From: Primulina eburnea
Taxonomy: Eukaryota; Streptophyta; Magnoliopsida; Lamiales; Gesneriaceae
Reading direction: 5' to 3'
DNA length: 64,000 nt
Assembly (NCBI RefSeq): GCF_022965805.1
Contig: NW_027330893.1
Span: 36,001-100,000 of the forward strand
Position 1 is the stretch's first letter. Each line of letters starts with the position of its first letter. The translations under genes and the position numbers were made by a program. The notes under the pieces were generated by a model that saw only the letters and a list, made by a program, of their open reading frames with translations, was not told the DNA's origin and made no database searches. Positions 5,566 to 55,231 of this stretch are shown here, in pieces.

Positions 5566-5570
5566 GACAA

Positions 5571-5941: not shown

Positions 5942-6023
5942 AGTCATAATCATACTGAAAATCATATATGATATCATTTCTTATTTCTTATGGTTATGTA
6001 CAATCTTCACAACATATTCGTAT
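5942..6023. other. Short non-repetitive spacer between element and satellite
   Basis: This is 82 bp of AT-rich DNA without a recognisable feature. Its first 5 bases should be the target duplication of the Tekay-like element. It is the only sequence in the window that I cannot assign to a retrotransposon or to the satellite. Confidence 0.6.
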
Positions 6024-6394
6024 ATGTCAATCATTGTTCTGGGCATTACAGAATAGCACGCAAAAGTGTTCCCAAAGTTATATTGACAACTTCAGTTTGT
6101 CCATCTGTTTGAGGATGACAAGTAGTAGAAAACAACAATTTTGTGCCCAGTTTAGCCCATAAATTATTCCAAAAGTAACTCAAAAATTTAACATTGCGAC
6201 GAGAAACAATAGTCCTAGGCATGCCATGCAACCTAGCGACTTCTCTAAAGAACAAATCCGGAATGTTTGAAGCATCATCGGTTTCATGACAAGCTATAAA
6301 ATGTGCCATCTTAGAGAATCTATCCACAACTACAAAAATAGAATCCCTCCTCTTCTTAGGCCTAGGCAACTCCAAAATAAAGTCCAGAGAAATG

Positions 6395-6993
6395 TCAATC
6401 CAAGTTCTTTTTAAGAATAGCACGCAAAAGTGTTCCCAAAGTTCTATTGACAACTTCAGTTTGTCCATCCGTTTGAGGATGACAAGTAGTAGAAAACAAC
6501 AATTTTGTGCCAAGTTCAGCCCATAAAGTCTTCCAAAAGTAACTCAAGAATTTAACATCGCGACCAGAAACAATAGTCCTAGGCATGCCAAGCAACCTAG
6601 CGACTTCTCTAAAGAACAAATCCGCAATGTTTGAAGCATCATCTGTTTTATGACAAGCTATAAAATGTTCCCAAAGTTATATTGACAACTTCAGTTTGTC
6701 CATCCGTTTGAGGATGACAAGTAGTAGAAAACAACAATTTTTTGCCAAATTCAGCCCATAAAGTGTTCCAAAAGTAACTCAAGAATTTAACATCGCGACC
6801 AGAAACAATAGTCCTAGGCATGCCAAGCAACCTAGCGACTTCTCTAAAGAACAAATCCGCAATGTTTGAAGCATCATCGGTTTTTTGACAAGCTATAAAA
6901 TGTGCCATCTTAGAGAATCTATCCACAACAACAAAAATAGAATACATCCCCTTCTTAGTCCTAGGCAACCCCAAAATAAAGTCCATAGAAATG
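6395..6993 (-). repeat. Example of the truncated 235-bp monomer next to a full one
   Basis: The interval between two junction anchors here is 599 bp, i.e. 364 + 235. Near 6655-6670 the sequence jumps from ATAAAATGT to TTCCCAAAG, removing 129 bp that normally include the monomer junction. Both sides share TGT, so a 3-bp microhomology deletion is likely. The same junction recurs at about a dozen other places (for example near 12535, 20270, 26135, 28520, 31945, 33970, 34890, 36185, 37510, 39535, 40455 and 41740), which shows spread by amplification and not by repeated deletion. Confidence 0.85.
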
Positions 6994-7320
6994 TCAATCC
7001 AAGTTCTTTTTAAGAATAGCACGAAAAAGTGTTCCCAAAGTTCTATTGACAACTTCAATTTGTCCATCCGTTTGAGGATGACAAGTAGTAGAAAACAACA
7101 ATTTTGTGCCAAGTTTAGCCCATAAATTATTCCAAAAGTAACTCAAAAGTTTAACATTGCGACGAGAAACAATAGTCCTAGGCATGCCATACAACCTAGC
7201 GACTTCTCTAAAGAACAAATCCGCAATGTTTGAAGCATCATCGGTTTTATGACAAGCTATAAAATGTGCCATCTTAGAGAATCTATCCACAACAACCCCA
7301 AAATAAAGTCCATAGAAATG
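6994..7320 (-). repeat. Example of the 327-bp monomer class
   Basis: Relative to the 364-bp unit, 37 bp are missing between CAAC repeats (plus strand: ACAACAAC directly joined to CCCAAAATAAAG near 7290-7305). This deletes the codons around [11 protein letters not shown]...SIF. Since 327 is divisible by 3, this class keeps one frame across the unit, which allows in-frame fusions where the junction stop is also lost. Many monomers carry this deletion (for example units ending near 8342, 9408, 11519, 13161 and 20888). Confidence 0.85.
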
Positions 7321-10300
7321 TCAATCCAAGTTCTTTTTAAGAATAGCACGCAAAAGTGTTCCCAAAGTTATATTGACAACTTCAGTTTGTCCATCCGTTT
7401 GAGGATGACCAGTAGTAGAAAACAACAATTTTGTGCCAAGTTTAGCCCATAAATTATTCCAAAAGTAACTCAAAAATTTAACATTGCGACGAGAAACAAT
7501 AGTCCTAGGCATGCCATGCAACCTAGCGACTTCTCTAAAGAACAAATCCGTAATGTTTGAAGCATCATCGGTGTCATGACAAGCTATAAAATGTGCCATC
7601 TTAGAGAATCTATCCACAATTACAAAAATAGAATCCCTCCTCTTCTTAGGCCTAGGCAACCCCAACTAAAGTCCATAGAAATGTCAATCCAAGTTCTTTT
7701 TAAGAATAGCACGCAAAAGTGTTCCCAAAGTTTTATTGACAACTTCAGTTTGTCCATCTGTTTGAAAATGACAAGTAGTAGAAAACAACAATTTTGTGCC
7801 AAGTTTAGCCCATAAATTATTCCAAAAGTAACTCAAAAATTTAACATTGCGACGAGAAACAATAGTCCTAGGCATGCCATGCAACCTAGCGACTTCTCTA
7901 AAGAACAAATCCGTAATGTCTGAAGCATCATCGGTTTTGACAAGCTATAAAATGTGCCATCTTTGAGAATCTATCCACAACTACAAAAATAGAATCCCTC
8001 CTCTTCTTAGGCCTAGGCAACTCCAAAATAAAGTCCAGAGAAATGTCAATCCAAGTTCTTTTTAAGAATAGCACGCAAAAGTGTTCCCAAAGTTATATTG
8101 ACAACTTCAGTTTGTCCATCTGTTTGAGGATGACAAGTAGTAGAAAACAACAATTTTGTGCCAAGTTTAGCCCATAAATTATTCCAAAAGTAACTCAAAA
8201 ATCTAACATTGCGACGAGAAACAATAGTCCTAGGCATGCCATGAAACCTAGCGACTTCTCTAAAGAACAAATCCGCAATGTTTGAAGCATCATCGGTTTT
8301 ATGACAAGCTATAAAATGTGCCATCTTAGAGAATCTATCCACAACAACCCCAAAATAAAGTCCATAGAAATGTCAATCCAAGTTCTTTTTAAGAATAGCA
8401 CGCAAAGTGTTCCCAAAGTTATATTGACAACTTCAGTTTGTCCATCCGTTTGAGGATGACCAGTAGTATAAAACAACAATTTTGTGCCAAGTTTAGCCCA
8501 TAAATTATTCCAAAAGTAACTCAAAAATTTAACATTGCGACGAGAAACAATAGTCCTAGGCATGCCATGCAACCTAGCGACTTCTCTAAAGAACAAATCC
8601 GTAATGTTTGAAGCATCATCGGTGTCATGACAAGCTATAAAATGTGCCATCTTAGAGAATCTATCCACAATTACAAAAATAGAATCCCTCCTCTTCTTAG
8701 GCCTAGGCAACCCCAAATAAAGTCCATAGAAATGTCAATCCAAGTTCTTTTTAAGAATAGCACGCAAAAGTGTTCCCAAAGTTATATTGACAACTTCAGT
8801 TTGTCCATCTGTTTGAAAATGACAAGTAGTAGAAAACAACAATTTTGTGCCAAGTTTAGCCCATAAATTATTCCAAAAGTAACTCAAAAATTTAACATTG
8901 CGACGAGAAACAATAGTCCTAGGCATGCCATGCAACCTAGCGACTTCTCTAAAGAACAAATCCGTAATGTCTGAAGCATCATCGGTTTCATGACAAGCTA
9001 TAAAATGTGCCATCTTTGAGAATCTATCCACAACTACAAAAATAGAATCCCTCCTCTTCTTAGGCCTAGGCAACTCCAAAATAAAGTCCAGAGAAATGTC
9101 AATCCAAGTTCTTTTTAAGAATAGCACGCAAAAGTGTTCCCAAAGTTATATTGACAACTTCAGTTTGTCCATCTGTTTGAGGATGACAAGTAGTAGAAAA
9201 CAACAATTTTGTGCCAAGTTTAGCCCATAAATTATTCCAAAAGTAACTCAAAAATCTAACATTGCGACGAGAAACAATAGTCCTAGGCATGCCATGCAAC
9301 CTAGCGACTTCTCTAAAGAACAAATCCGCAATGTTTGAAGCATCATCGGTTTTATGACAAGCTATAAAATGTGCCATCTTAGAGAATCTATCCACAACAA
9401 CCCCAAAATAAAGTCCATAGAAATGTAAATCCAAGTTCTTTTTAAGAATAGCACGCTAAAGTGTTCCCAAAGTTATATTGACAACTTCAGTTTGTCCATC
9501 TGTTTGAGGATGACAAGTAGTAGAAAACAACAATTTTGTGACAAGTTTAGCCCATAAATTATTCCAAAAGTAACTCAAAAATTTAACATTGCGACGAGAA
9601 ACAATAGTCCTAGGCATGCCATGCAACCTAGCGACTTCTCTAAAGAACAAATCCGTAATGTTTGAAGCATCATCGGTTTCATGACAAGCTATAAAATGTG
9701 CCATCTTTGAGAATCTATACACAACTACAAAAATAGAATCCCTCCTCTTCTTAGGCCTAGGCAACTCCAAAATAAAGTCCAGAGAAATGTCAATCCAAGT
9801 TCTTTTTAAGAATAGCACGCAAAAGTGTTCCCAAAGTTCTATTGACAGTTCTTCAGTTTGTCCATCCGTTTGAGGATGACAAGTAGTAGAAAACACAAAT
9901 TTTGTGCCAAGTTTAGCCCATAAATTATTCCAAAAGTAACTCAAAAATCTAACATTGCGACGAGAAACAATAGTCCTAGGCATGCCATGCAACCTAGCGA
10001 CTTCTCTAAAGAACAAATCCGGAATGTTTGAAGCATCATCGGTTTCATGACAAGCTATAAAATGTGCCATCTTAGATAATCTATCCACAACAACCCCAAA
10101 ATAAAGTCCAGATAAATGTCAATCCAAGTTCTTTTTAAGAATAGCACGCAAAAGTGTTCCCAAAGTTTTATTGACAACTTCAGTTTGTCCATCTGTTTGA
10201 GAATGACAAGTAGTAGAAAACAACAATTTTGTGCCAAGTTTAGCCCATAAATTATTCCAAAAGTAACTCAAAAATTCAACATTGCGACGAGAAACAATAG

Positions 10301-13300
10301 TCCTAGGCATGCCATGCAACCTAGCGACTTCTCTAAAGAACAAATCCGGAATGTTTTAAGCATCATCGGTTTCATGACAAGCTATAAAATGTGCCATCTT
10401 AGATAATCTATCCACAACTACAAAAATAGAATCCCTCCTCTTCTTAGGCCTAGGCAACTCCAAAATAAAGTACAGAGAAATGTCAATCCAAGTTCTTTTT
10501 AAGAATATCACGCAAAAGTGTTCCCAAATTTCTATTGACAACTTCAGTTTGTCCATCCGTTTGAGGAGGACAAGTAGTAGAAAACAACAATTTTGTGCCA
10601 AGTTTAGCCCATAAATTATTCCAAAAGTAACTCAAAAATTTAACATTGCGACGAGAAACAATAGTCCTTGGCATGCCATGCAACCTAGCGACTTCTCTAA
10701 AGAACAAATCCGTAATGTTTGAAGCATCATCGGTTTCATGACAAGCTATAAAATATGCCATCTTAGAGAATCTATCCACAATTACAAAAATAGAATCCCT
10801 CCTCTTCTTAGGCCTAGGCAACCCCAACTAAAGTCCATAGAAATGTCAATCCAAGTTCTTTTTAAGAATAGCACGCAAAAGTGTTCCCAAAGTTTTATTG
10901 ACAACTTCAGTTTGTCCATCTGTTTGAGAATGACAAGTAGTAGAAAACAACAATTTTGTGCCAAGTTTAGCCCATAAATTATTCCAAAAGTAACTCAAAA
11001 ATCTAACATTGCGACGAGAAACAATAGTCCTAGGCATGCCATGCAACCTAGCGACTTCTCTAAAGAACAAATCCGTAATGTTTGAAGCATCATCGGTTTC
11101 ATGACAAGCTATAAAATGTGCCATCTTTGAGAATCTATCCACAACTACAAAAATAGAATCCCTCCTCTTCTTAGGCCTAGGCAACTCCAAAATAAATTCC
11201 AGAGAAATGTCAATCCAAGTTCTTTTTAAGAATAGCACGCAAAAGTGTTCCCAAAGTTCTATTGACAACTTCAGTTTGTCCATCCGTTTGAGGATGACAA
11301 GTAGTAGAAAACAACAATCTTGTGCCAAGTTTAGCCCATAAATTATTCCAAAAGTAACTCAAAAATCTAACATTGCGACGAGAAACAATAGTCCTAGGCA
11401 TGCCATGCAACCTAGCGACTTCTCTAAAGAACAAATCCGCAATGTTTGAAGCATCATCGGTTTTATGACAAGCTATAAAATGTGCCATCTTAGAGAATCT
11501 ATCCACAACAACCCCAAAATAAAGTCCATAGAAATGTAAATCCAAGTTCTTTTTAAGAATAGCACGCTAAAGTGTTCCCAAAGTTATATTGACAACTTCA
11601 GTTTGTCCATCTGTTTGAGGATGACAAGTAGTAGAAAACAACAATTTTGTGCCAAGTTTAGCCCATAAATTATTCCAAAAGTAACTCAAAAATTTAACAT
11701 TGCGACGAGAAACAATAGTCCTAGGCATGCCATGCAACCTAGCGACTTCTCTAAAGAACAAATCCGGAATGTTTGAAGCATCATCGGTTTCATGACAAGC
11801 TATAAAATGTGCCATCTTAGAGAATCTATCCACAACTACAAAAATAGAATCCCTCCTCTTCTTAGGCCTAGGCAACTCCAAAATAAAGTACATAGAAATG
11901 TCAATCCAAGTTCTTTTTAAGAATAGCACGCAAAAGTGTTCCCAAAGTTATATTGACAACTTCAGTTTGTCCATCTGTTTGAGGATGACAAGTAGTAGAA
12001 AACAACAATTTTGTGCCCAGTTTAGCCCATAAATTATTCCAAAAGTAACTCAAAAATTTAACATTGCGACGAGAAACAATAGTCCTAGGCATGCCATGCA
12101 ACCTAGCGACTTCTCTAAAGAACAAATCCGGAATGTTTGAAGCATCATCGGTTTCATGACAAGCTATAAAATGTGCCATCTTAGAGAATCTATCCACAAC
12201 TACAAAAATAGAATCCCTCCTCTTCTTAGGCCTAGGCAACTCCAAAATAAAGTCCAGAGAAATGTCAATCCAAGTTCTTTTTAAGAATAGCACGCAAAAG
12301 TGTTCCCAAAGTTCTATTGACAACTTCAGTTTGTCCATCCGTTTGAGGATGACAAGTAGTAGAAAACAACAATTTTGTGCCAAGTTCAGCCCATAAAGTC
12401 TTCCAAAAGTAACTCAAGAATTTAACATCGCGACCAGAAACAATAGTCCTAGGCATGCCAAGCAACCTAGCGACTTCTCTAAAGAACAAATCCGCAATGT
12501 TTGAAGCATCATCTGTTTTATGACAAGCTATAAAATGTTCCCAAAGTTATATTGACAACTTCAGTTTGTCCATCCGTTTGAGGATGACAAGTAGTAGAAA
12601 ACAACAATTTTGTGCCAAGTTCAGCCCATAAAGTGTTCCAAAAGTAACTCAAGAATTTAACATCGCGACCAGAAACAATAGTCCTAGGCATGCCAAGCAA
12701 CCTAGCGACTTCTCTAAAGAACAAATCCGCAATGTTTGAAGCATCATCGGTTTTTTGACAAACTATAAAATGTTGCCATCTTAGAGAATCTATCCACAAC
12801 AACAAAAATAGAATACATCCCCTTCTTAGTCCTAGGCAACCCCAAAATAAAGTCCATAGAAATGTCAATCCAAGTTCTTTTTAAGAATAGCACGGAAAAG
12901 TGTTCCCAAAGTTCTATTGACAACTTCAATTTGTCCATCCGTTTGAGGATGACAAGTAGTAGAAAACAACAATTTTGTGCCAAGTTTAGCCCATAAATTA
13001 TTCCAAAAGTAACTCAAAAGTTTAACATTGCGACGAGAAACAATAGTCCTAGGCATGCCATACAACCTAGCGACTTCTCTAAAGAACAAATCCGCAATGT
13101 TTGAAGCATCATCGGTTTTATGACAAGCTATAAAATGTGCCATCTTAGAGAATCTATCCACAACAACCCCAAAATAAAGTCCATAGAAATGTCAATCCAA
13201 GTTCTTTTTAAGAATAGCACGCAAAAGTGTTCCCAAAGTTATATTGACAACTTCAGTTTGTCCATCCGTTTGAGGATGACCAGTAGTAGAAAACAACAAT

Positions 13301-16300
13301 TTTGTGCCAAGTTTAGCCCATAAATTATTCCAAAAGTAACTCAAAAATTTAACATTGCGACGAGAAACAATAGTCCTAGGCATGCCATGCAACCTAGCGA
13401 CGTCTCTAAAGAACAAATCCGGAATGTTTGAAGCATCATCGGTTTCATGACAAGCTATAAAATGTGCCATCTTAGAGAATCTATCCACAACTACAAAAAT
13501 AGAATCCCTCCTCTTCTTAGGCCTAGGCAACTCCAAAATAAAGTCCAGAGAAATGTCAATCCAAGTTCTTTTTAAGAATAGCACGTAAAAGTGTTCCCAA
13601 AGTTCTATTGACAACTTCAGTTTGTCCATCCGTTTGAGGATGACAAGTAGTAGAAAACAACAATTTTGTGTCAAGTTCAGCCCATAAAGTCTTCCGAAAG
13701 TAACTCAAGAATTTAACATCGCGACCAGAAACAATAGTCCTAGGCATGCCAAGCAACCTAGCGACTTCTCTAAAGAACAAATCCGTAATGTTTGAAGCAT
13801 CATCGGTGTCATGACAAGCTATAAAATGTGCCATCTTAGAGAATCTATCCACAATTACAAAAATAGAATCCCTCCTCTTCTTAGGCCTAGGCAACCCCAA
13901 CTAAAGTCCATAGAAATGTCAATCCAAGTTCTTTTTAAGAATAGCACGCAAAAGTGTTCCCAAAGTTTTATTGACAACTTCAGTTTGTCCATCTGTTTGA
14001 AAATGACAAGTAGTAGAAAACAACAATTTTGTGCCAAGTTTAGCCCATAAATTATTCCAAAAGTAACTCAAAAATTTAACATTGCGACAAGAAACAATAG
14101 TCCTAGGCATGCCATGCAACCTAGCGACTTCTCTAAAGAACAAATCCGTAATGTCTGAAGCATCATCGGTTTCATGACAAGCTATAAAATGTGCCATCTT
14201 TGAGAATCTATCCACAACTACAAAAATAGAATCCCTCCTCTTCTTAGGCCTAGGCAACTCCAAAATAAAGTCCAGAGAAATGTCAATCCAAGTTCTTTTT
14301 AAGAATAGCACGCAAAAGTGTTCCCAAAGTTATATTGACAACTTCAGTTTATCCATCTGTTTGAGGATGACAAGTAGTAGAAAACAACAATTTTGTGCCC
14401 AGTTTAGCCCATAAATTATTCCAAAAGTAACTCAAAAATTTAACATTGCGACGAGAAACAATAGTCCTAGGCATGCCATGCAGCCTAGCGACTTCTCTAA
14501 AGAACAAATCCGTAATGTCTGAAGCATCATCGGTTTCATGACAAGCTATAAAATGTGCCATCTTTGAGAATCTATCCACAACTACAAAAATAGAATCCCT
14601 CCTCTTCTTAGGCCTAGGCAACTCCAAAATAAAGTCCAGAGAAATGTCAATCCAAGTTCTTTTTAAGAATAGCACGCAAAAGTGTTCCCAAAGTTATATT
14701 GACAACTTCAGTTTATCCATCTGTTTGAGGATGACAAGTAGTAGAAAACAACAATTTTGTGCCCAGTTTAGCCCATAAATTATTCCAAAAGTAACTCAAA
14801 AATTTAACATTGCGACGAGAAACAATAGTCCTAGGCATGCCATGCAACCTAGCGACTTCTCTAAAGAACAAATCCGGAATGTTTGAAGCATCATCGGTTT
14901 CATGACAAGCTATAAAATGTGCCATCTTAGAGAATCTATCCACAACTACAAAAATAGAATCCCTCCTCTTCTTAGGCCTAGGCAACTCCAAAATAAAGTC
15001 CAGAGAAATGTCAATCCAAGTTCTTTTTAAGAATAGCACGCAAAAGTGTTCCCAAAGTTATATTGACAACTTCAGTTTGTCCATCTGTTTGAGGATGACA
15101 AGTAGTAGAAAACAACAATTTTGTGCCCAGTTTAGCCCATAAATTATTCCAAAAGTAACTCAAAAATTTAACATTGCGACGAGAAACAATAGTCCTAGGC
15201 ATGCCATGCAACCTAGCGACTTCTCTAAAGAACAAATCCGGAATGTTTGAAGCATCATCGGTTTCATGACAAGCTATAAAATGTGCCATCTTAGAGAATC
15301 TATCCACAACTACAAAAATAGAATCCCTCCTCTTCTTAGGCCTAGGCAACTCCAAAATAAAGTCCAGAGAAATGTCAATCCAAGTTCTTTTTAAGAATAG
15401 CACGTAAAAGTGTTCCCAAAGTTCTATTGACAACTTCAGTTTGTTCATCCGTTTGAGGATGACAAGTAGTAGAAAACAACAATTTTGTGCCAAGTTCAGC
15501 CCATAAAGTCTTCCAAAAGTAACTCAAGAATTTAACATCGCGACCAGAAACAATAGTCCTAGGCATGCCAAGCAACCTAGCAACTTCTCTAAAGAACAAA
15601 TCCGCAATGTTTGAAGCATCATCGGTTTTTTGACAAGCTATAAAATGTGCCATTTTAGAGAATCTATCCACAACAACAAAAATAGAATACATCCCCTTCT
15701 TAGTCCTAGGCAACCCCAAAATAAAGTCCATAGAAATGTCAATCCAAGTTCTTTTTAAGAATAGCACGGAAAAGTGTTCTCAAAGTTCTATTGACAACTT
15801 CAGTTTGTCCATCCGTTTGAGGATGACAAGTAGTAGAAAACAACAATTTTGTGCCAAGTTTAGCCCATAAATTATTCCAAAAGTAACACAAAAATTTAAC
15901 ATTGCGACGAGAAACAATAGTCCTAGGCATGCCATGCAACCTAGCGACTTCTCTAAAGAACAAATCCGCAATGTTTGAAGCATCATCGGTTTTATGACAA
16001 GCTATAAAATGTGCCATCTTAGAGAATCTATCCACAACAACCCAAAATAAAGTCCATTGAAATGTCAATCCAAGTTCTTTTTAAGAATAGCACGCAAAAG
16101 TGTTCCCAAAATTATATTGACAACTTCAGTTTGTCCATCCGTTTGAGGATGACAAGTAGTAGAAAACAACAATTTTGTGTCAAGTTTAGCCCATAAATTA
16201 TTCCAAAAGTAACTCAAAAATTTAACATCGCGACCAGAAACAATAGTCCTAGGCATGCCAAGCAACCTAGCGACTTCTCTAAAGAACAAATCCGCAATGT

Positions 16301-40300: not shown

Positions 40301-42100
40301 GTTTAGCCCATAAATTATTCCAAAAGTAACTCAAAAATTTAACATCGCGACCAGAAACAATAGTCCTAGGCATGCCAAGCAACCTAGCGACTTCTCTAAA
40401 GAACAAATCCGCAATGTTTGAAGCATCATCGGTTTTATGACAAGCTATAAAATGTTCCCAAAGTTATATTGACAACTTCAGTTTGTCCATCCGTTTGAGG
40501 ATGACAAGTAGTAGAAAACAACAATTTTGTGCCAAGTTCAGCCCATAAAGTCTTCCAAAAGTAACTCAAGAATTTAACATCGCGACCAGAAACAATAGTC
40601 CTAGGCATGCCAAGCAACCTAGCGACTTCTCTAAAGAACAAATCCGCAATGTTTGAAGCATCACCGATTTTTTGACAAGCTATAAAATGTGCCATCTTAG
40701 AGAATATATCCACAACAACAAAAATAGAATACATCCCCTTCTTAGTCCTAGGCAACCCCAAAATAAAGTCCATAGAAATGTCAATCCAAGTTCTTTTTAA
40801 GAATAGCACGCAAAAGTGTTCCCAAAGTTCTATTGACAACTTCAATTTGTCCATCCGTTTGAGGATGACAAGTAGTAGAAAACAACAATTTTGTTGCCAA
40901 GTTTAGCCCATAAATTATTCCAAAAGTAACTCAAAAGTTTAACATTGCGACGAGAAACAATAGTCCTAGGCATGCCATACAACCTAGCGACTTCTCTAAA
41001 GAACAAATCCGCAATGTTTGAAGCATCATCGGTTTTATGACAAGCTATAAAATGTGCCATCTTAGAGAATCTATCCACAACAACCCCAAAATAAAGTCCA
41101 TAGAAATGTCAATCCAAGTTCTTTTTAAGAATAGCACGCAAAAGTGTTCCCAAAGTTATATTGACAACTTCAGTTTGTCCATCCGTTTGAGGATGACCAG
41201 TAGTAGAAAACAACAATTTTGTGCCAAGTTTAGCCCATAAATTATTCCAAAAGTAACTCAAAAATTTAACATTGCGACGAGAAACAATAGTCCTAGGCAT
41301 GCCATGCAACCTAGCGACTTCTCTAAAGAACAAATCCGTAATGTTTGAAGCATCATCGGTGTCATGACAAGCTATAAAATGTGCCATCTTAGAGAATCTA
41401 TCCTCAACTACAAATATAGAATCCCTCCTCTTCTTAGGCCTAGGCAACTGCAAAATAAAGTCCAAAGAAATGTCAATCCAAGTTCTTTTTAAGAATAGCA
41501 CGCAAAAGTGTTCCCAAAATTATATTGACAACTTCAGTTTGTCCATCCGTTTGAGGATGACAAGTAGTAGAAAACAACAATTTTGTGCCAAGTTTAGCCC
41601 ATAAATTATTCCAAAAGTAACTCAAAAATTTAACATCGCGACCAGAAACAATAGTCCTAGGCATGCCAAGCAACCTAGCGACTTCTCTAAAGAACAAATC
41701 CGCAATGTTTGAAGCATCATCGGTTTTATGACAAGCTATAAAATGTTCCCAAAGTTATATTGACAACTTCAGTTTGTCCATCCGTTTGAGGATGACAAGT
41801 AGTAGAAAACAACAATTTTGTGCCAAGTTCAGCCCATAAAGTCTTCCAAAAGTAACTCAATAATTTAACATCGCAACCAGAAACAATAGTCCTAGGCATG
41901 CCAAGCAACCTAGCGACTTCTCTAAAGAACAAATCCGCAATGTTTGAAGCATCACCGGTTTTTTGACAAGCTATAAAATGTGCCATCTTAGAGAATATAT
42001 CCACAACAACAAAAATAGAATACATCCCCTTCTTAGTCCTAGGCAACCCCAAAATAATTTCCATAGAAATATCAATCCAAGTTCTTTTTAAGAATTGCAC
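31335..42100 (-). repeat. Third period start, then 5.56-kb higher-order repeats
   Basis: The first 2 kb continues the previous pattern (31315, 31679, 32278, 32605 and 32968 equal 19629, 19993, 20592, 20919 and 21282 plus 11686). A second regime then begins: 31679, 32278, 32605, 32968, 33332, 33696, 34295, 34622, 35221, 35548, 35912 and 36511 recur at +5560/5561 (37239 to 42072). The two copies share odd features, such as a 233-codon frame at 33949-34650 and 39509-40210 that crosses a monomer boundary. Confidence 0.8.
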
Positions 42101-42397
42101 GGAAAAGTGTTCCCAAAATTCTATTGACAACTTCAGTTTGTCCCTCCGTTTGAGGATGACAGGTAGTAGAAAACAACAATTTTGTGCCAAGTTTAGCCCA
42201 TAAATTATTCCAAAAGTAACTCAAAAATTTAACATTGCGACGAGAAACAATAGTCCTAGGCATGCCATGCAACCTAGCGACTTCTCTAAAGAACAAATCC
42301 GCAATGTTTGAAGCATCATCGGTTTTATGACAAGCTATAAAATGTTCCATCTTAGAGAATCTATCCACAACAACCCAAAATAAAGTCCATAGAAATG

Positions 42398-45300
42398 TCA
42401 ATTCAAGTTCTTTTTAAGAATAGCACGCAAAAGTGTTCCCAAAGTTATATTGACAACTTCAGTTTGTCCATCCGTTTGAGGATGACCAGTAGTAGAAAAC
42501 AACAATTTTGTGCCAAGTTTAGCCCATAAATTATTCCAAAAGTAACTCAAAAATTTAACATTGCGACGAGAAACAATAGTCCTAGGCATGCCATGCAACC
42601 TAGCGACTTCTCTAAAGAACAAATCCGTAATGTTTGAAGCATCATCGATGTCATGACAAGCTATAAAATGTGCCATCTTAGAGAATCTATCCTCAACTAC
42701 AAATATAGAATCCCTCCTCTTCTTAGGCCTAGGCAACTGCAAAATAAAGTCCAAAGAAATGTCAATCCAAGTTCTTTTTAAGAATAGCACGCAAAAGTGT
42801 TCCCAAAGTTCTATTGACAACTTCAGTTTGTCCATCTGTTTGAGGAAGACAAGTAGTAGAAAACAACAATTTTGTGCCAAGTTTAGCCCATAAATTATTC
42901 CAAAAGTAACTCAAAAATTTAACATTGCGACGAGAAACAATAGTCCTAGGCATGCCATGCAACCTAGCGACTTCTCTAAAGAACAAATCCGTAATGTTTG
43001 AAGCATCATCGGTTTTATGACAAGCTATAAAATGTGCCATCTTAGAGAATCTATCCACAACAACCCCAAAATAAAGTCCATAGAAATATCAATCCAAGTT
43101 CTTTTTAAGAATAGCACGCAAAAGTGTTCCCAAAGTTATATTGACAACTTCAGTTTGTCCATCCGTTTGAGAATGACAAGTAGTAGAAAACAACAATTTT
43201 GTGCCAAGTTTAGCCCATAAATTATTCCAAAAGTAACTCAAAAATTTAACATTGCGACGAGAAACAATAGTCCTAGGCATGCCATGCAACCTAGCGACTT
43301 CTCTAAAGAACAAATCCGTAATGTTTGAAGCATCATCGGTTTCATGACAAGCTATAAAATGTGCCATCTTAGAGAATCTATCCTCAACTACAAATATAGA
43401 ATCCCTCCTCTTCTTAGGCCTAGGCAACTGCAAAATAAAGTCCAGAGAAATGTCAATCCAAGTTCTTTTTAAGAATAGCACGCAAAAGTGTTCCCAAAGT
43501 TCTATTGACAACTTCAGTTTGTCCATCTGTTTGAGGAAGACAAGTAGTAGAAAACAACAATTTTGTGCCAAGTTTAGCCCATAAATTATTCCAAAAGTAA
43601 CTCAAAAATTTAACATTGCGACGAGAAACAATAGTCCTAGGCATGCCATGCAACCTAGCGACTTCTCTAAAGAACAAATCCGGAATGTTTGAAGCATCAT
43701 CGGTTTCATGACAAGCTATAAAATGTGCCATCTTAGATAATCTATCCACAACTACAAAAATAGAATCCCTCCTCTTCTTAGGCCTAGGCAACTCCAAAAT
43801 AAAGTACAGAGAAATGTCAATCCAAGTTCTTTTTAAGAATAGCACGCAAAAGTGTTCCCAAATTTCTATTGACAACTTCAGTTTGTCCATCCGTTTGAGG
43901 ATGACAAGTAGTAGAAAACAACAATTTTGTGCCAAGTTTAGCCCATAAATTATTCCAAAAGTAACTCAAAAATTTAACATTGCGACGAGAAACAATAGTC
44001 CTTGGCATGCCATGCAACCTAGCGACTTCTCTAAAGAACAAATCCGTAATGTTCGAAGCATCATCGGTTTCATGACAAGCTATAAAATGTGCCATCTTTG
44101 AGAATCTATCCACAATTACAAAAATAGAATCCCTCCTCTTCTTAGGCCTAGGCAACCCCAACTAAAGTCCATAGAAATGTCAATACAAGTTCTTTTTAAG
44201 AATAGCATGCAAAAGTGTTCCCAAAGTTTTATTGACAACTTCAGTTTGTCCATCTGTTTGAGAATGACAAGTAGTAGAAAACAACAATTTTGTGCCAAGT
44301 TTAGCCCATAAATTATTCCAAAAGTAACTAAAAAATATTTAACATTGCGACGAGAAACAATAGTCCTAGGCATGCCATGCAACCTAGCGACTTCTCTAAA
44401 GAACAAATCCGTAATGTTTGAAGCATCATCGGTTTCATGACAAGCTATAAAATGTGCCATCTTTGAGAATCTATCCACAACTACAAAAATAGAATCCCTC
44501 CTCTTCTTAGGCCTAGGCAACTCCAAAATAAAGTCCAGAGAAATGTCAATCCAAGTTCTTTTTAAGAATAGCACGCAAAAGTGTTCCCAAAGTTTTATTG
44601 ACAACTTCAGTTTGTCCATCTGTTTGAGAATTACAAGTAGTAGAAAACAACAATTTTGTGCCATGTTTAGCCCATAAATTATTCCAAAAGTAACTCAAAA
44701 ATTTAACATTGCGACGAGAAACAATAGTCCTAGGCTTGCCATGCAACCTAGCGACTTCTCTAAAGAACAAATCCGCAATGTTTGAAGCATCATCGGTTTT
44801 ATGACAAGCTATAAAATGTTCCATCTTAGAGAATCTATCCACAACAACCCAAAATAAAGTCCATAGAAATGTCAATTCAAGTTCTTTTTAAGAATAGCAC
44901 GCAAAAGTGTTCCCAAAGTTATATTGACAACTTCAGTTTGTCCATCCGTTTGAGGATGACCAGTAGTAGAAAACAACAATTTTGTGCCAAGTTTAGCCCA
45001 TAAATTATTCCAAAAGTAACTCAAAAATTTAACATTGTGACGAGAAACAATAGTCCTAGGCATGCCATGCAACCTAGCGACTTCTCTAAAGAACAAATCC
45101 GTAATGTTTGAAGCATCATCGGTGTCATGACAAGCTATAAAATGTGCCATCTTAGAGAATCTATCCTCAACTACAAATATAGAATCCCTCCTCTTCTTAG
45201 GCCTAGGCAACTGCAAAATAAAGTCCAAAGAAATGTCAATCCAAGTTCTTTTTAAGAATAGCACGCAAAAGTGTTCCCAAAGTTCTATTGACAACTTCAG

Positions 45301-47345
45301 TTTGTCCATCTGTTTGAGGAAGACAAGTAGTAGAAAACAACAATTTTGTGCCAAGTTTAGCCCATAAATTATTCCAAAAGTAACTCAAAAATTTAACATT
45401 GCGACGAGAAACAATAGTCCTAGGCATGCCATGCAACCTAGCGACTTCTCTAAAGAACAAATCCGTAATGTTTGAAGCATCATCGGTTTTATGACAAGCT
45501 ATAAAATGTGCCATCTTAGAGAATCTATCCACAACAACCCCAAAATAAAGTCCATAGAAATATCAATCCAAGTTCTTTTTAAGAATAGCACGCAAAAGTG
45601 TTCCCAAAGTTATATTGACAACTTCAGTTTGTCCATCCGTTTGAGAATGACAAGTAGTAGAAAACAACAATTTTGTGCCAAGTTTAGCCCATAAATTATT
45701 CCAAAAGTAACTCAAAAATTTAACATTGCGACGAGAAACAATAGTCCTAGGCATGCCATGCAACCTAGCGACTTCTCTAAAGAACAAATCCGTAATGTTT
45801 GAAGCATCATCGGTTTCATGACAAGCTATAAAATGTGCCATCTTAGAGAATCTATCCTCAACTACAAATATAGAATCCCTCCTCTTCTTAGGCCTAGGCA
45901 ACTGCAAAATAAAGTCCAGAGAAATGTCAATCCAAGTTCTTTTTAAGAATAGCACGCAAAAGTGTTCCCAAAGTTCTATTGACAACTTCAGTTTGTCCAT
46001 CTGTTTGAGGAAGACAAGTAGTAGAAAACAACAATTTTGTGCCAAGTTTAGCCCATAAATTATTCCAAAAGTAACTCAAAAATTTAACATTGCGACGAGA
46101 AACAATAGTTCTAGGCATGCCATGCAACCTAGCGACTTCTCTAAAGAACAAATCCGGAATGTTTGAAGCATCATCGGTTTCATGACAAGCTATAAAATGT
46201 GCCATCTTAGATAATCTATCCACAACTACAAAAATAGAATCCCTCCTCTTCTTAGGCCTAGGCAACTCCAAAATAAAGTACAGAGAAATGTCAATCCAAG
46301 TTCTTTTTAAGAATAGCACGCAAAAGTGTTCCCAAATTTCTATTGACAACTTCAGTTTGTCCATCCGTTTGAGGATGACAAGTAGTAGAAAACAACAATT
46401 TTGTGCCAAGTTTAGCCCATAAATTATTCCAAAAGTAACTCAAAAATTTAACATTGCGACGAGAAACAATAGTCCTTGGCATGCCATGCAACCTAGCGAC
46501 TTCTCTAAAGAACAAATCCGTAATGTTCGAAGCATCATCGGTTTCATGACAAGCTATAAAATGTGCCATCTTTGAGAATCTATCCACAATTACAAAAATA
46601 GAATCCCTCCTCTTCTTAGGCCTAGGCAACCCCAACTAAAGTCCATAGAAATGTCAATACAAGTTCTTTTTAAGAATAGCATGCAAAAGTGTTCCCAAAG
46701 TTTTATTGACAACTTCAGTTTGTCCATCTGTTTGAGAATGACAAGTAGTAGAAAACAACAATTTTGTGCCAAGTTTAGCCCATAAATTATTCCAAAAGTA
46801 ACTAAAAAATATTTAACATTGCGACGAGAAACAATAGTCCTAGGCATGCCATGCAACCTAGCGACTTCTCTAAAGAACAAATCCGTAATGTTTGAAGCAT
46901 CATCGGTTTCATGACAAGCTATAAAATGTGCCATCTTTGAGAATCTATCCACAACTACAAAAATAGAATCCCTCCTCTTCTTAGGCCTAGGCAACTCCAA
47001 AATAAAGTCCAGAGAAATGTCAATCCAAGTTCTTTTTAAGAATAGCACGCAAAAGTGTTCCCAAAGTTTTATTGACAACTTCAGTTTGTCCATCTGTTTG
47101 AGAATTACAAGTAGTAGAAAACAACAATTTTGTGCCATGTTTAGCCCATAAATTATTCCAAAAGTAACTCAAAAATTTAACATTGCGACGAGAAACAATA
47201 GTCCTAGGCTTGCCATGCAACCTAGCGACTTCTCTAAAGAACAAATCCGTAATGTTTGAAGCATCATCGGTTTCATGACAAGCTATAAAATGTGCCATCT
47301 TTGAGAATCTATCCACAACTACAAAAATAGAATCCCTTCTCTTCT
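42398..47345 (-). repeat. 2.47-kb higher-order repeat, two copies
   Basis: Anchors 42398, 42762, 43089, 43453, 43817 and 44546 recur at +2474 (44872, 45236, 45563, 45927, 46291 and 47020). Shared private variants include the CAACTGCAAAATAAAG form of the LPRPKK region and an extended A-run (ACTAAAAAATATTTAAC) near 44327 and 46801. Confidence 0.8.
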
Positions 47346-47383
47346 TAGGCCTAGGCAACTCCAAAATAAAGTCCAGAGAAATG

Positions 47384-48193
47384 TCAATCCAAGTTCTTTT
47401 TAAGAATAGCACGCAAAAGTGTTCCCAAAGTTCTATTGACAACTTCAGTTTGTCCATCCGTTTGAGGATGACAAGTAGTAGAAAACAACAATTTTGTGCC
47501 AAGTTTAGCCCATAAATTATTCCAAAAGTAACTCAAAAATCTAACATTGCGACGAGAAACAATAGTCCTAGGCATGCCATGCAACCTAGCGACTTCTCTA
47601 AAGAACAAATCCGCAATGTTTGAAGCATCATCGGTTTTATGACAAGCTATAAAATGTGCCATCTTAGAGAATCTATCCACAACAACCCCAAAATAAAGTC
47701 CATAGAAATGTAAATCCAAGTTCTTTTTAAGAATAGCACGCAAAAGTGTTCCCAAAGTTATATTGACAACTTCAGTTTGTCCATCTGTTTGAGGATGACA
47801 AGTAGTAGAAAACAACAATTTTGTGGCAAGTTTAGCCCATAAATTATTCCAAAAGTAACTAAAAAATTTAACATTGCGACGAGAAACAATAGTCCTAGGC
47901 ATGCCATGCAACCTAGCGACTTCTCTAAAGAACAAATCCGGAATGTTTGAAGCATCATCGGTTTCATGACAAGCTATAAAATGTGCCATCTTAGATAATC
48001 TATCCACAACTACAAAAATAGAATCCCTCCTCTTCTTAGGCCTAGGCAACTCCAAAATAAAGTACAGAGAAATGTCAATCCAAGTTCTTTTTATGAATAG
48101 CACGCAAAAGTGTTCCCAGATTTCTATTGACAACTTCAGTTTGTCCATCCGTTTGAGGATGACAAGTAGTAGAAAACAACAATTTTGTGCCAA
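47384..48193 (-). pseudogene. Two integrase-core monomers fused in frame (269 codons)
   Basis: This open frame covers more than two monomers. In the inner junction the usual TGA is changed to TTA (plus strand TGTAAATCC instead of TGTCAATCC), and the adjacent 37-bp deletion keeps the frame, so two cores are joined through [20 protein letters not shown]. Both cores lack the second catalytic Asp (SRRN), and the first has LYF where the first catalytic Asp (MDF) should be. An equivalent frame lies one higher-order period away at 50260-51069. No promoter or leader is visible, so I treat it as satellite sequence and not a gene. Confidence 0.6.
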
Positions 48194-50259
48194 GTTTAGC
48201 CCATAAATTATTCCAAAAGTAACTCAAAAATTTAACATTGCGACGAGAAACAATAGTCCTTGGAATGCCATGCAACCTAGCGACTTCTCTAAAGAACAAA
48301 TCCGTAATGTTTGAAACATCATCGGTTTCATGACAAGCTATAAAAATGTGCCATCTTTGAGAATCTATCCACAATTACAAAAATAGAATCCCTCCTCTTC
48401 TTAGGCCTAGGCAACCCCAACTAAAGTCCATAGAAATGTAAATCCAAGTTCTTTTTAAGAATAGCACGCAAAAGTGTTCCCAAAGTTATATTGACAACTT
48501 CAGTTTGTCCATCCGTTTGAGAATGACAAGTAGTAGAAAACAACAATTTTGTGCCAAGTTTAGCCCATAAATTATTCCAAAAGTAACTCAAAAATTTAAC
48601 ATTGCGACGAGAAACAATAGTCCTAGGCATGCCATGCAACCTAGCGACTTCTCTAAAGAACAAATCCGTAATGTTTGAAGCATCATCGGTTTCATGACAA
48701 GCTATAAAATGTGCCATCTTAGAGAATCTGTCCTCAACTACAAATATAGAATCCCTCCTCTTCTTAGGCCTAGGCAACTGCAAAATAAAGTCCAGAGAAA
48801 TGTCAATCCAAGTTCTTTTTAAGAATAGCACGCAAAAGTGTTCCCAAAGTTCTATTGACAACTTCAGTTTGTCCATCTGTTTGAGGAAGACAAGTAGTAG
48901 AAAACAACAATTTTGTGCCAAGTTTAGCCCATAAATTATTCCAAAAGTAACTCAAAAATTTAACATTGCGACGAGAAACAATAGTCCTAGGCATGCCATG
49001 CAACCTAGCGACTTCTCTAAAGAACAAATCCGGAATGTTTGAAGCATCATCGGTTTCATGACAAGCTATAAAATGTGCCATCTTAGATAATCTATCCACA
49101 ACTACAAAAATAGAATCCCTCCTCTTCTTAGGCCTAGGCAACTCCAAAATAAAGTACAGAGAAATGTCAATCCAAGTTCTTTTTAAGAATAGCACGCAAA
49201 AGTGTTCCCAAATTTCTATTGACAACTTCAGTTTGTCCATCCGTTTGAGGATGACAAGTAGTAGAAAACAACAATTTTGTGCCAAGTTTAGCCCATAAAT
49301 TATTCCAAAAGTAACTCAAAAATTTAACATTGCGACGAGAAACAATAGTCCTTGGCATGCCATGCAACCTAGCGACTTCTCTAAAGAACAAATCCGTAAT
49401 GTTCGAAGCATCATCGGTTTCATGACAAGCTATAAAATGTGCCATCTTTGAGAATCTATCCACAATTACAAAAATAGAATCCCTCCTCTTCTTAGGCCTA
49501 GGCAACCCCAACTAAAGTCCATAGAAATGTCAATACAAGTTCTTTTTAAGAATAGCATGCAAAAGTGTTCCCAAAGTTTTATTGACAACTTCAGTTTGTC
49601 CATCTGTTTGAGAATGACAAGTAGTAGAAAACAACAATTTTGTGCCAAGTTTAGCCCATAAATTATTCCAAAAGTAACTAAAAAATATTTAACATTGCGA
49701 CGAGAAACAATAGTCCTAGGCATGCCATGCAACCTAGCGACTTCTCTAAAGAACAAATCCGTAATGTTTGAAGCATCATCGGTTTCATGACAAGCTATAA
49801 AATGTGCAATCTTTGAGAATCTATCCACAACTACAAAAATAGAATCCCTCCTCTTCTTAGGCCTAGGCAACTCCAAAATAAAGTCCAGAGAAATGTCAAT
49901 CCAAGTTCTTTTTAAGAATAGCACGCAAAAGTGTTCCCAAAGTTTTAGTGACAACTTCAGTTTGTCCATCTGTTTGAGAATTACAAGTAGTAGAAAACAA
50001 CAATTTTGTGCCATGTTTAGCCCATAAATTATTCCAAAAGTAACTCAAAAATTTAACATTGCGACGAGAAACAATAGTCCTAGGCTTGCCATGCAACCTA
50101 GCGACTTCTCTAAAGAACAAATCCGTAATGTTTGAAGCATCATCGGTTTCATGACAAGCTATAAAATGTGCCATCTTTGAGAATCTATCCACAACTACAA
50201 AAATAGAATCCCTTCTCTTCTTAGGCCTAGGCAACTCCAAAATAAAGTCCAGAGAAATG

Positions 50260-51069
50260 TCAATCCAAGTTCTTTTTAAGAATAGCACGCAAAAGTGTTC
50301 CCAAAGTTCTATTGACAACTTCAGTTTGTCCATCCGTTTGAGGATGACAAGTAGTAGAAAACAACAATTTTGTGCCAAGTTTAGCCCATAAATTATTCCA
50401 AAAGTAACTCAAAAATCTAACATTGCGACGAGAAACAATAGTCCTAGGCATGCCATGCAACCTAGCGACTTCTCTAAAGAACAAATCCGCAATGTTTGAA
50501 GCATCATCGGTTTTATGACAAGCTATAAAATGTGCCATCTTAGAGAATCTATCCACAACAACCCCAAAATAAAGTCCATAGAAATGTAAATCCAAGTTCT
50601 TTTTAAGAATAGCACGCAAAAGTGTTCCCAAAGTTATATTGACAACTTCAGTTTGTCCATCTGTTTGAGGATGACAAGTAGTAGAAAACAACAATTTTGT
50701 GGCAAGTTTAGCCCATAAATTATTCCAAAAGTAACTCAAAAATTTAACATTGCGACGAGAAACAATAGTCCTAGGCATGCCATGCAACCTAGCGACTTCT
50801 CTAAAGAACAAATCCGGAATGTTTGAAGCATCATCGGTTTCATGACAAGCTATAAAATGTGCCATCTTAGATAATCTATCCACAACTACAAAAATAGAAT
50901 CCCTCCTCTTCTTAGGCCTAGGCAACTCCAAAATAAAGTACAGAGAAATGTCAATCCAAGTTCTTTTTATGAATAGCACGCAAAAGTGTTCCCAAATTTC
51001 TATTGACAACTTCAGTTTGTCCATCCGTTTGAGGATGACAAGTAGTAGAAAACAACAATTTTGTGCCAA
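50260..51069 (-). pseudogene. Second copy of the in-frame two-monomer fusion (269 codons)
   Basis: This is the higher-order copy of the frame at 47384-48193, displaced by 2876 bp. It differs by very few residues (for example FLSYF versus FFSYF in the first core). Its duplication explains its conservation; selection need not be invoked. Confidence 0.6.
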
Positions 51070-51314
51070 GTTTAGCCCATAAATTATTCCAAAAGTAACT
51101 CAAAAATTTAACATTGCGACGAGAAACAATAGTCCTTGGAATGCCATGCAACCTAGCGACTTCTCTAAAGAACAAATCCGTAATGTTTGAAACATCATCG
51201 GTTTCATGACAAGCTATAAAAATGTGCCATCTTTGAGAATCTATCCACAATTACAAAAATAGAATCCCTCCTCTTCTTAGGCCTAGGCAACCCCAACTAA
51301 AGTCCATAGAAATG

Positions 51315-54312
51315 TCAATCCAAGTTCTTTTTAAGAATAGCATGCAAAAGTGTTCCCAAAGTTTTATTGACAACTTCAGTTTGTCCATCTGTTTGAGAAT
51401 GACAAGTAGTAGAAAACAACAATTTTGTGCCAAGTTTAGCCCATAAATTATTCCAAAAGTAACTCAAAAATTTAACATTGCGACGAGAAACAATAGTCCT
51501 AGGCATGCCATGCAACCTAGCGACTTCTCTAAAGAACAAATCCGTAATGTCTGAAGCATCATCGGTTTCATGACAAGCTATAAAATGTGCCATCTTTGAG
51601 AATCTATCCACAACTACAAAAATAGAATCCCTCCTCTTCTTAGGCCTAGGCAACTCCAAAATAAAGTCCAGAGAAATGTCAATCCAAGTTCTTTTTAAGA
51701 ATAGCACGCAAAAGTGTTCCCAAAGTTTTATTGACAACTTCAGTTTGTCCATCTGTTTGAGAATGACAAATAGTAGAAAACAACAATTTTGTGCCAAGTT
51801 TAGCCCATAAATTATTCCAAAAGTAACTCAAAAATTTAACATTGCGACGAGAAACAATAGTCCTAGGCTTGCCATGCAACCTAGCGACTTCTCTAAAGAA
51901 CAAATCCGTAATGTTTGAAGCATCATCGGTTTCATGACAAGCTATAAAATGAGCCATCTTTGAGAATCTATCCACAACTACAAAAATAGAATCCCTCCTC
52001 TTCTTAGGCCTAGGCAACTCCAAACTAAAGTCCAGAGAAATGTCAATCCAAGTTCTTTTTAAGAATAGCACGCAAAAGTGTTCCCAAAGTTCTATTGACA
52101 ACTTCAGTTTGTCCATCCGTTTGAGGATGACAAGTAGTAGAAAACAACAATTTTGTGCCAAGTTTAGCCCATAAATTATTCCAAAAGTAACTCAAAAATC
52201 TAACATTGCGACGAGAAACAATAGTCCTAGGCATGCCATGCAACCTAGCGACTTCTCTAAAGAACAAATCCGCAATGTTTGAAGCATCATCGGTTTTATG
52301 ACAAGCTATAAAATGTGCCATCTTAGAGAATCTATCCACAACAACCCCAAAATAAAGTCCATAGAAATGTAAATCCAAGTTCTTTTTAAGAATAGCACGC
52401 AAAGTGTTCCCAAAGTTATATTGACAACTTCAGTTTGTCCATCTGTTTGAGGATGACAAGTAGTAGAAAACAACAATTTTGTGGCAAGTTTAGCCCATAA
52501 ATTATTCCAAAAATAACTCAAAAATTTAACATTGCGACGAGAAACAATAGTCCTAGGCATGCCATGCAACCTAGCGACTTCTCTAAAGAACAAATCCGCA
52601 ATGTTTGAAGCATCATCGGTTTCATGACAAGCTATAAAATGTGCCATCTTAGAGAATCTATCCACAACTACAAAAATAGAATGCCTCCTCTTCTTAGGCC
52701 TAGGCAACTCCAAAATAAAGTCCAGATAAATGTCATTCCAAGTTCTTTTTAAGAATAGCACGCAAAAGTGTTCCCAAAGTTCTATTGACAACTTCAGTTT
52801 GTCCACCCGTTTGAGGATGACAAGTAGTAGAAAACAACAATTTTGTGCCAAGTTTAGCCCATAAATTATTCCAAAAGTAACTCAAAAATCTAACATTGCG
52901 ACGAGAAACAATAGTCCTAGGTATGCCATGCAACCTAGCGACTTCTCTAAAGAACAAATCCGCAATATTTGAAGCATCATCGGTTTTATGACAAGCTATA
53001 AAATGTGGCATCTTAGAGAATCTATCCACAACTACAAAAATAGAATCCCTCCTCTTCTTAGGCCTAGGCAACTCCAAAATAAAGTCCAGAGAAATGTCAA
53101 TCCAAGTTCTTTTTAAGAATAGCACGCAAAAGTGTTCTCAAAGTTCTGTTGACAACTTCAGTTTGCCCATCCGTTTGAGGATGACAAGTAGTAGAAAACA
53201 ACAATTTTATGCCAAGTTTAGCCCATAAATTATTCCAAAAGTAACTCAAAAATCTAACATTGCGACGAGAAACAATAGTCCTAGGCATGCCATGCAACCT
53301 AGCGACTTCTCTAAAGAACAAATCCGTAATGTTTGAAGCATCATCGGTTTCATGACAAGCTATAAAATGTGCCATCTTTGAGAATCTATCCACAACTACA
53401 AAAATAGAATCCCTCCTCTTCTTAGGCCTAGGCAACTCCAAAATAAAGTCCAGAGAAATGTCAATCCAAGTTCTTTTTAAGAATAGCACGCACAAGTGTT
53501 CCCAAAGTTCTATTGACAACTTCAGTTTGTCCATCCGTTTGAGGATGACAAGTAGTAGAAAACAACAATTTTGTGCCAAGTTTAGCCCATAAATTATTCC
53601 AAAAGTAACCCAAAAATCTAACATTGCGACGAGAAACAATAGTCCTAGGCATGCCATGCAACCTAGCGACTTCTCTAAAGAACAAATCCGCAATGTTTGA
53701 AGCATCATCGGTTTTATGACAAGCTATAAAATGTGCCATCTTAGAGAATCTATCCACAACAACCCCAAAATAAAGTCCATAGAAATGTCAATCCAAGTTC
53801 TTTTTAAGAATAGCACGCAAAAGTGTTCCCAAAGTTTTATTGACAACTTCAGTTTGTCCATCTGTTTGAGGATGACAAGTAGTAGAAAACAACAATTTTG
53901 TGCCAAGTTTGGCCCATAAATTATTCCAAAAGTAACTCAAAAATTTAACATTGCGACGAGAAACAATAGTCCTAGGCATGCCATGCAACCTAGCGACTTC
54001 TCTAAAGAACAAATCCGTAATGTTTGAAGCATCATTGGTTTCATGACCAGCTATAAAATGTGACATCTTAGAGAATCTATCCACAACTACAAAAATAGAA
54101 TCCCTCCTCTTCTTAGGCCTAGGCAACCCCAACTAAAGTCCATAGAAATGTCAATCCAAGTTCTTTTTAAGAATAGCACGCAAAAGTGTTCCCAAAGTTT
54201 TATTGACAACTTCAGTTTGTCCATCTGTTTGAGAATGACAAGTAGTAGAAAACAACAATTTTGTGCCAAGTTTAGCCCATAAATTATTCCACAAGTAACT
54301 CAAAAATTTAAC
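51315..54312 (-). repeat. Less homogenised right part of the array next to the CRM-like insertion
   Basis: About eight monomers here carry many private substitutions not seen elsewhere (for example TTTGTCCACC near 52800, TTTGCCCATCC near 53162, ATTTTATGCC near 53205, ATCATTGGTTTC near 54033). They do not fit the nearby 2.88-kb repeat. The last monomer is cut at 54312 by the insertion and resumes at 61605. Confidence 0.65.
54308..54312. other. Left copy of the target-site duplication (TTAAC)
   Basis: TTAAC immediately precedes the LTR terminus TGATGCGAAC. The same 5 bases follow the inverted LTR at 61605-61609. Together they rebuild the normal monomer sequence AAAAATTTAACATTGCGACG, proving that the whole 54313-61604 block is an insertion in one monomer. 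Confidence 0.93.
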
Positions 54313-55224: not shown

Positions 55225-55231
55225 TATCATT

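Follow-up and report, generated by a model that had tools for sequence, protein, structure and literature searches.

The window analysed here is a stretch of 64,000 nucleotides of Primulina eburnea, a species of Gesneriaceae in the order Lamiales (assembly GCF_022965805.1, contig NW_027330893.1), namely positions 36001-100000 of a contig of exactly 100,000 bp that is called C363 below (C363:36001-100000). It holds a long tandem array of a 364-bp unit related to the integrase of CRM-type Ty3/gypsy retrotransposons, and both visible edges of the array are retrotransposons that inserted into it with 5-bp target duplications. We consider it highly probable that the array belongs to a genome-wide P. 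eburnea satellite that arose, probably once, from the catalytic-core segment of the integrase of such an element. Positions are those of the window unless a contig is named. The array comprises the following features.

6051..54312, minus strand (coding sense of the ancestral integrase): main array, about 140 copies of the 364-bp monomer with spacings of 364, 327 and 235 bp, from Tandem Repeats Finder, BLAST and anchor intervals
13164..13527, minus strand: full-length monomer used as reference for comparisons and as BLAST query
61605..64000, minus strand: continuation of the array past an inserted element to the end of the window, which is the end of contig C363, from BLAST matches

Satellite DNA is recognised by long head-to-tail arrays of a homogeneous unit, and the main array has this form, with about 140 copies in 48 kb. 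Mean pairwise identity among 84 full-length copies is 96.7% (range 91.2-100%). Tandem Repeats Finder returned overlapping rows with periods of 364, 327 and 235 on the array stretch. BLAST of the reference monomer against the window gave 151 matches: 141 in the main array, eight after 61605, and two, on the opposite strand at 59562-59928, in the integrase of the inserted CRM-like element. Spacing was measured with a 12-base anchor, tolerating one mismatch. Its 145 occurrences in the window delimit 144 intervals, comprising 96 of 362-366 bp, 30 of 326-328 bp, 14 of 235 bp, three of 693 bp (pairs of units in which one anchor went undetected), and one of 7624 bp (the retroelement). The 327-bp form has lost 37 bp between two CAAC words, and TGT is common to both deletion ends at the 235-bp spacing. 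Because 364 is not a multiple of 3, the reading frame changes at every full-length junction.

An earlier note, made by a model from the letters alone, had described a tandem array of about 140 copies at 6024..54312. Its tandem arrangement is borne out by all three analyses, and its copy number by the BLAST count. The array does occupy that interval, but both limits have to be moved. The left edge lies at 6051, since 4495-6050 is the long terminal repeat (LTR) of an inserted element, and 54312 is not the right end, because a CRM-like element splits the array, which resumes at 61605 and runs to the end of the window. The restriction ladders proposed in that note were checked on the sequence. SphI sites (GCATGC) occur 136 times, most commonly 364 bp apart, which makes SphI the better ladder enzyme; AvrII sites (CCTAGG) occur 225 times in 48,262 bp, mostly 147 and 216-217 bp apart, and many monomers would be cut twice. 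The exact 100,000-bp size of C363 looks like scaffolding debris of a larger satellite region.

The integrase segment in the monomer reaches from shortly before the first catalytic Asp to shortly past the catalytic Glu. Against the integrase core of CRM-like elements it aligns in two pieces, circularly permuted, and it is wholly derived from a CRM-type element. Its source is integrase coding sequence and not the LTR and untranslated region (UTR) that gave rise to tandem repeats of the maize kind. Element copies were sought through one sequence difference at the monomer edge, and 28 places (8 loci and 20 more) were examined. At 19 of these the integrase runs on past the monomer, on both sides in 18 cases and on one side within the fetched stretch in the other (L089); the remaining nine are satellite copies with an altered junction base. 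The cores of the 19 elements are 82-90% identical to the monomer, and that of the window's inserted element is 79% identical. None of the 19 element copies read has the core in tandem form. At the protein level, the closest of 239 proteins compared are Primulina polyproteins (85.8-88.7%), with the next listed at 78-82%. The Pfam domain rve was found on the window's own element, which, rather than the monomer, was the Pfam query.

An IQ-TREE tree of 51 rows included 31 satellites (18 from the window, seven from C4, and six from other chromosomes) and 20 elements. One branch splits all satellites from all element cores, with support of 100/99 and presence in 100% of 200 bootstrap trees. As far as the sampled sequences go, this split favours one founding event. 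All 18 window rows and four of the seven C4 rows form a subclade (100/98). The monomer junction, between AAGAACTT and GGATTGAC, joins the element sequences AAGAACTTAAAG and GAACCTTGGGTTGA, which have CTT in common as a 3-base microhomology. The 19 element copies, the rve domain, and the tree together support the earlier attribution of the repeat to a CRM-like Ty3/gypsy integrase core. The unit had also been called exactly one protein domain; it does cover the catalytic core, as delimited above, but it is not an intact domain, as its active site is broken and its frame shifts.

Active integrases retain a catalytic triad of D, D, and E, and the satellite copies in the window do not. Codons were counted in 149 window copies anchored on the reference monomer. 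The second catalytic Asp is absent from all 148 copies with data, the codon being CGT in 114, GGT in 31, TGT in two, and AGT in one, with no data for the one remaining copy. Of the other two catalytic residues, Glu persists in 147 of 148 copies and the first Asp can be read in 116 of 133, with TAC in 13 and GAA in four. Outside the window, where satellite rows below 88% identity were dropped, the second Asp was found in none of 52 further C363 copies and none of 217 C4 copies with a complete codon, and all six copies with data from C1, C2, C3, C5, C6, and C8 have GGT. This Asp is present in 18 of the 19 CRM-like elements elsewhere (the other has TAC). GGT was probably the state of the spreading satellite, with CGT a later change that is common on C4 and C363. 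Judged from its sequence, the satellite does not encode a working enzyme. The ancestral frame is nonetheless stop-free in 113 of 131 core-spanning copies (inserted bases ignored). Diversity by codon position is about equal (0.0295, 0.0243, and 0.0271; no significance test). Because codon positions vary to this similar degree and the unit length is not a multiple of 3, we read the open frames as a reflection of youth and homogenisation, not of selection.

The array is not a local oddity but part of a genome-wide satellite, because an exact 31-base pattern spanning the monomer junction has 36,117 matches (19,494 + 16,623) in the assembly of 812,487,562 bases and 1224 contigs. A 24-base pattern, DAAGTTCTTTTTAAGAATAGCACG, gave 44,793 matches (24,042 + 20,751) with one mismatch allowed, some of which are element copies. 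The reversed control of each pattern gave 0 matches. The window array was used for calibration, with 121 (24-base) and 106 (31-base) matches per 50.66 kb. If other arrays resemble it, the satellite amounts to about 18.8 Mb or 17.3 Mb, respectively, which is 2.3 or 2.1% of the assembly. The earlier description of a large satellite thus holds but was an understatement. A one-base junction variant has 518 matches, and the 100 places listed cover all of the chromosome-size contigs C1-C10, each with one to three clusters, for example at C2 17.3-19.4 and 23.9-27.4, C4 13.56-16.04, C6 6.9-7.0, and C8 13.3-16.1 and 25.2-25.5 Mb. Sampling of C4 found the satellite in 11 of 15 stretches of 10 kb, 11 of 20 of 600 bp, and two of 20 of 500 bp. 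The sampled C4 places with array lie at 13.3-17.0 Mb, and none of nine 500-bp stretches at 11.5-13.2 Mb contained it. With these blocks and copy numbers, the repeat also shows the abundance in large chromosomal blocks that is expected of satellite DNA.

Several of the places read differ from the window array in layout. The 500-bp stretch at C4 17.0 Mb has the satellite in reverse orientation, and at C2:18.6 Mb (L081) satellite copies flip head to head within 461 bp. At C1:32.35-32.57 Mb many junctions follow one another at 356-357 bp rather than 364, a sign of a length variant that is local or specific to this chromosome. A short array at C1:14.04 Mb (L116) lies far from the main C1 arrays and is split by a solo CRM LTR with the target duplication TAAAG. 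It was considered as a seed locus and rejected, as the stretch read contains this solo LTR, flanked by its duplicated target site, and no integrase flank.

Within the main array, large blocks have been duplicated. The longest is 8872 bp at 99.7% identity (offset 13,598 bp), followed by 5883 bp at 98.9% (offset 5560 bp), 4818 bp at 98.8% (offsets 5871 and 7728), and 3927 bp at 99.0% (offset 2876). Monomer pairs that are at least 99.5% identical make up 22% at lag 35, which has the most such pairs among all lags to 59 monomers, and 15% at lag 17; there are none between neighbours. Such a lag pattern is expected from repeated duplication of blocks, by a process such as unequal exchange or conversion.

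The history of the satellite may be outlined as follows. A break in one element copy would have been repaired by joining the end of the core to its start through the 3-nt microhomology CTT, and this repair would have produced the first tandem pair. The pair could have grown into arrays through unequal exchange, slippage, or rolling-circle copying, and the arrays would then have spread to many chromosomes, with local homogenisation through block after block of several kb being duplicated. The second catalytic Asp would have been lost early, by a change of Asp to Gly and, in many C4 and C363 copies, a later change of Gly to Arg. Younger elements, both CRM-like and of other Ty3/gypsy kinds, have since used the satellite as a landing site. 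The array is older than the three insertions seen in C363, because all of them broke into monomers; their target duplications are GAATA, TTAAC, and TGTGC, the last of which stands at both sides of an insertion to the left of the window.

Some observations weigh against this history. The closest sampled element is only 90% identical to the monomer, so none of the elements read can be named as the direct parent. Patterns for the founding join, made of monomer plus upstream element flank or (in strict form) monomer plus downstream flank, had 0 exact matches each in the genome; a looser downstream pattern had 27 matches, which could not be read. The tree was rooted at its midpoint for drawing and holds sampled copies (31 satellites and 20 elements), not all copies. 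Three of its seven C4 rows (L044, L047, and L060) fall outside the window subclade; therefore, homogenisation is local and not chromosome-wide. One edge copy of the short array at C1:14.04 Mb has GAT (Asp) at the second catalytic codon (the 19 other rows, which come from four C1 loci that overlap in part, have GGT), so the Asp loss may postdate the first duplication, or this copy may be a reversal. Finally, only one of 20 sampled 400-bp stretches at C1 33-38 Mb and C8 11.5-15 Mb contained the satellite, and arrays are patchy there.

Repeats in unplaced contigs can be collapsed or mis-joined during assembly, and the array could in principle be absent from the plant. The round size of C363, which suggests scaffolding debris, and the near-identity of large array blocks fit such an artefact. 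We nevertheless regard it as very improbable, as junction copies stand on the chromosome-size contigs C1-C10 and the array was read at many sampled places over C4 13.3-17.0 Mb; full-length monomers differ by 3.3% on average; and the matching 5-bp target duplications of the three C363 insertions within monomers are not expected from artefacts. Equally slight is the probability that the array consists of tandem integrase-domain genes kept for a protein product, as in a domesticated integrase. The many stop-free copies and the almost invariant Glu would agree with this, as would the longest stop-to-stop stretches on the coding-sense strand, which reach 279 amino acids. The frame shift at each full-length junction, the universal loss of the second Asp in the window copies with data, and the near-equal variation of codon positions led us to reject it. 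Among the 120 best of 3000 short-protein hits, annotated proteins are at most 79% identical, and none has the changed active-site signature of the satellite.

A repeat of this abundance could also be the main CENH3-binding repeat of P. eburnea, seeded by CRM elements that keep inserting into it. We hold this as a tentative reading, somewhat on the doubtful side. A length of 364 bp is near two nucleosome lengths, and the estimated 2% of the genome is distributed over all of C1-C10 in few clusters per contig (100 of 518 places listed). On C4 (45,357,081 bp), the satellite interval of 3.7 Mb is 8% of the contig, and among the best 40 of 3554 LTR matches, five of the 12 on C4 lie in this interval, two of which may be the LTRs of one element. 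The inserted element has two features of CRM group A (its LTR ends and its frame into the 3' LTR), and the window rows form their own subclade with four of the seven C4 rows. Against this, the clusters on C5 and C8 span 28-42 and 13-26 Mb, those on C5 and C7 reach close to the contig end, and pericentromeric or subterminal heterochromatin is equally possible. There is also no 10-bp AA/TT periodicity above that of shuffled sequences (56 of 300 shuffles were as strong). On this sequence evidence a role of the satellite in the centromere is plausible, and its most likely location would be (peri)centromeric heterochromatin. It is conceivable, though we lean slightly the other way, that a satellite descended from the insertion enzyme of centromere-seeking CRM elements, and itself a dead version of it, underlies the centromeres of P. 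eburnea. A retrotransposon would then have made the DNA that its descendants enter, and catalytic loss in the founder, or just after it, would have preceded the spread among chromosomes.

Satellites derived from retrotransposons are already known, and the P. eburnea satellite is one with an unusual source that extends genome-wide. Comparisons with published systems draw on excerpts of the papers cited. In maize, CRM1TR and CRM4TR are tandem repeats that come wholly from CRM Ty3/gypsy elements, from LTR and UTR (PMC3648361). They resemble the P. eburnea satellite in their wholly CRM-derived sequence, local homogenisation, later retrotransposon insertions, and the founding join proposed for both, in maize as illegitimate recombination between trinucleotides (PMC3648361). 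The maize monomers are about 0.7-1.4 kb and occupy one or two loci (PMC3648361), whereas the integrase-core monomer of P. eburnea is 364 bp long and occurs on at least ten chromosome-size contigs in tens of thousands of copies.

For wheat and rye, Cheng and Murata reportedly described in 2003 a centromeric repeat of 250 bp with a relationship to the gag gene of Cereba. A 250-bp wheat and rye repeat with this relationship is cited in two of the papers (PMC3648361; PMC9659126). Like the P. eburnea satellite, it has its relative in the coding sequence of a CRM-type Ty3/gypsy element, and the wheat and rye repeat is centromeric. Unlike it, that repeat combines gag with a CAA microsatellite at 53% amino-acid similarity, compared with an integrase core here that has 82-90% DNA identity to elements still present. 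The Ogre satellites of Lathyrus sativus are also retrotransposon sequence expanded into long arrays, but they come from short tandem repeats already inside the elements, downstream of the coding region (PMC7004042). SaazCEN of hop is likewise tied to a CRM element and is centromeric, beside chromosome-specific satellites; this 284-bp repeat, in contrast, sits in the LTR of the element (PMC12371157). CficCl-61-40 of Chenopodium shares an origin in the coding region of a transposition enzyme, the CACTA Tnp2 transposase, but its source is a DNA transposon and not the integrase of an LTR retrotransposon (PMC9659126).

Element parts that have become satellites include, according to excerpts of one review, LTRs, UTRs, gag, ORF2 of long interspersed elements (LINEs), and DNA transposase (PMC9659126). 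The word "integrase" is absent from this review and from another (PMC6947457). Among the matches listed in the open-licence PubMed Central literature, as covered by titles, the opening parts of abstracts, and selected passages, there is no satellite derived from an integrase core and no description of the P. eburnea satellite, either in Primulina or as a plant satellite of 364 bp; the figure "364 bp" does occur in papers on Crepis (PMC12589258) and Populus (PMC12525766). This agrees with the suggestion in the earlier note that the satellite may be undescribed in this species. An integrase core at an estimated 2% of the genome and on at least ten chromosome-size contigs widens the list of satellite-forming element parts and demonstrates that major satellites can form from conserved coding segments. 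The birth, spread, and local homogenisation of the satellite are traceable, because relatives from the parent family persist (82-90% identical) and the catalytic-site change and the junction serve as markers. If the satellite is centromeric, the idea of centromeric satellites being renewed by centromeric retrotransposons can be tested on it directly.

The retrotransposons at the array edges have the following features.

1..6050, minus strand: Ty3/gypsy element with gag-pol on the minus strand, the remainder lying left of the window from C363:34055, target duplication GAATA, from LTR and target duplication
4495-6050, minus strand: LTR of this left element, adjoining the array start at 6051
54313..61604, plus strand: CRM-like Ty3/gypsy element, target duplication TTAAC, inverted shortened LTR at its 3' side, from open frames, Pfam, and LTRs
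54313..55229, plus strand: 5' LTR of the CRM-like element, TGATG ... TATCA, from LTR comparison
55860..57722, plus strand: gag and protease open frame of the CRM-like element, from open frame and Pfam
57659..60832, plus strand: open frame for reverse transcriptase, RNase H, and integrase, entering the 3' LTR as in CRM group A, from open frame and Pfam
59562..59928, plus strand (opposite to the array): the element's own integrase core, homologous to the monomer (79.3% over 329 bp and 86.5% over 37 bp), from BLAST
60451..61353, plus strand: 3' LTR of the CRM-like element, from LTR comparison
61366..61604, minus strand: inverted partial LTR of 239 bp, 99.2% identical to the LTR start, closing the insertion, from LTR comparison

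The left element is presumably Tekay/Del-like, by resemblance. Its LTRs differ at one of 1555 sites, so its insertion is very recent; those of the CRM-like element differ at eight of 903 compared sites. At a rate of 1.3e-8 substitutions per site per year, as used for grasses, the insertions would be about 0.025 million years (My) and 0.34 My old, respectively.

Pfam domains of the CRM-like element are reverse transcriptase, RNase H, integrase zinc-binding, rve, and SH3_Tf2-1. TGGTATCAGAAC, which lies soon after its 5' LTR, is by eye a candidate tRNA-Met primer site, and the C-terminus of its integrase may resemble the CR motif of CRM elements. Five features of CRM group A are LTR ends TGATG ... 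T/CATCA, a frame that runs into the 3' LTR, a primer site complementary to tRNA-Met, a CR motif at the C-terminus of the integrase, and, in intact elements, a single gag-pol open frame (PMC3059260). The inserted element has the first two (TGATG at 54313 and TATCA ending at 55229; frame 57659-60832 with the LTR from 60451), and the solo LTR in the short C1 array has like ends. The single gag-pol open frame of group A is not present, as gag-protease and pol are two overlapping frames in the inserted copy; many of the elements are interrupted (PMC3059260).

Within one target duplication, the CRM-like insertion has the order LTR, internal part, LTR, inverted partial LTR. The extra inverted LTR may have arisen when two copies became joined, either before integration or in its course. 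Several LTRs of the CRM-like family stand a few kb apart in one orientation at C785:69661-85025 and C8:10116519-10127568, possibly as tandem or nested elements. The LTR of the left element contains short repeats of the form CGGACGATCCGAAC at 5617-5810.

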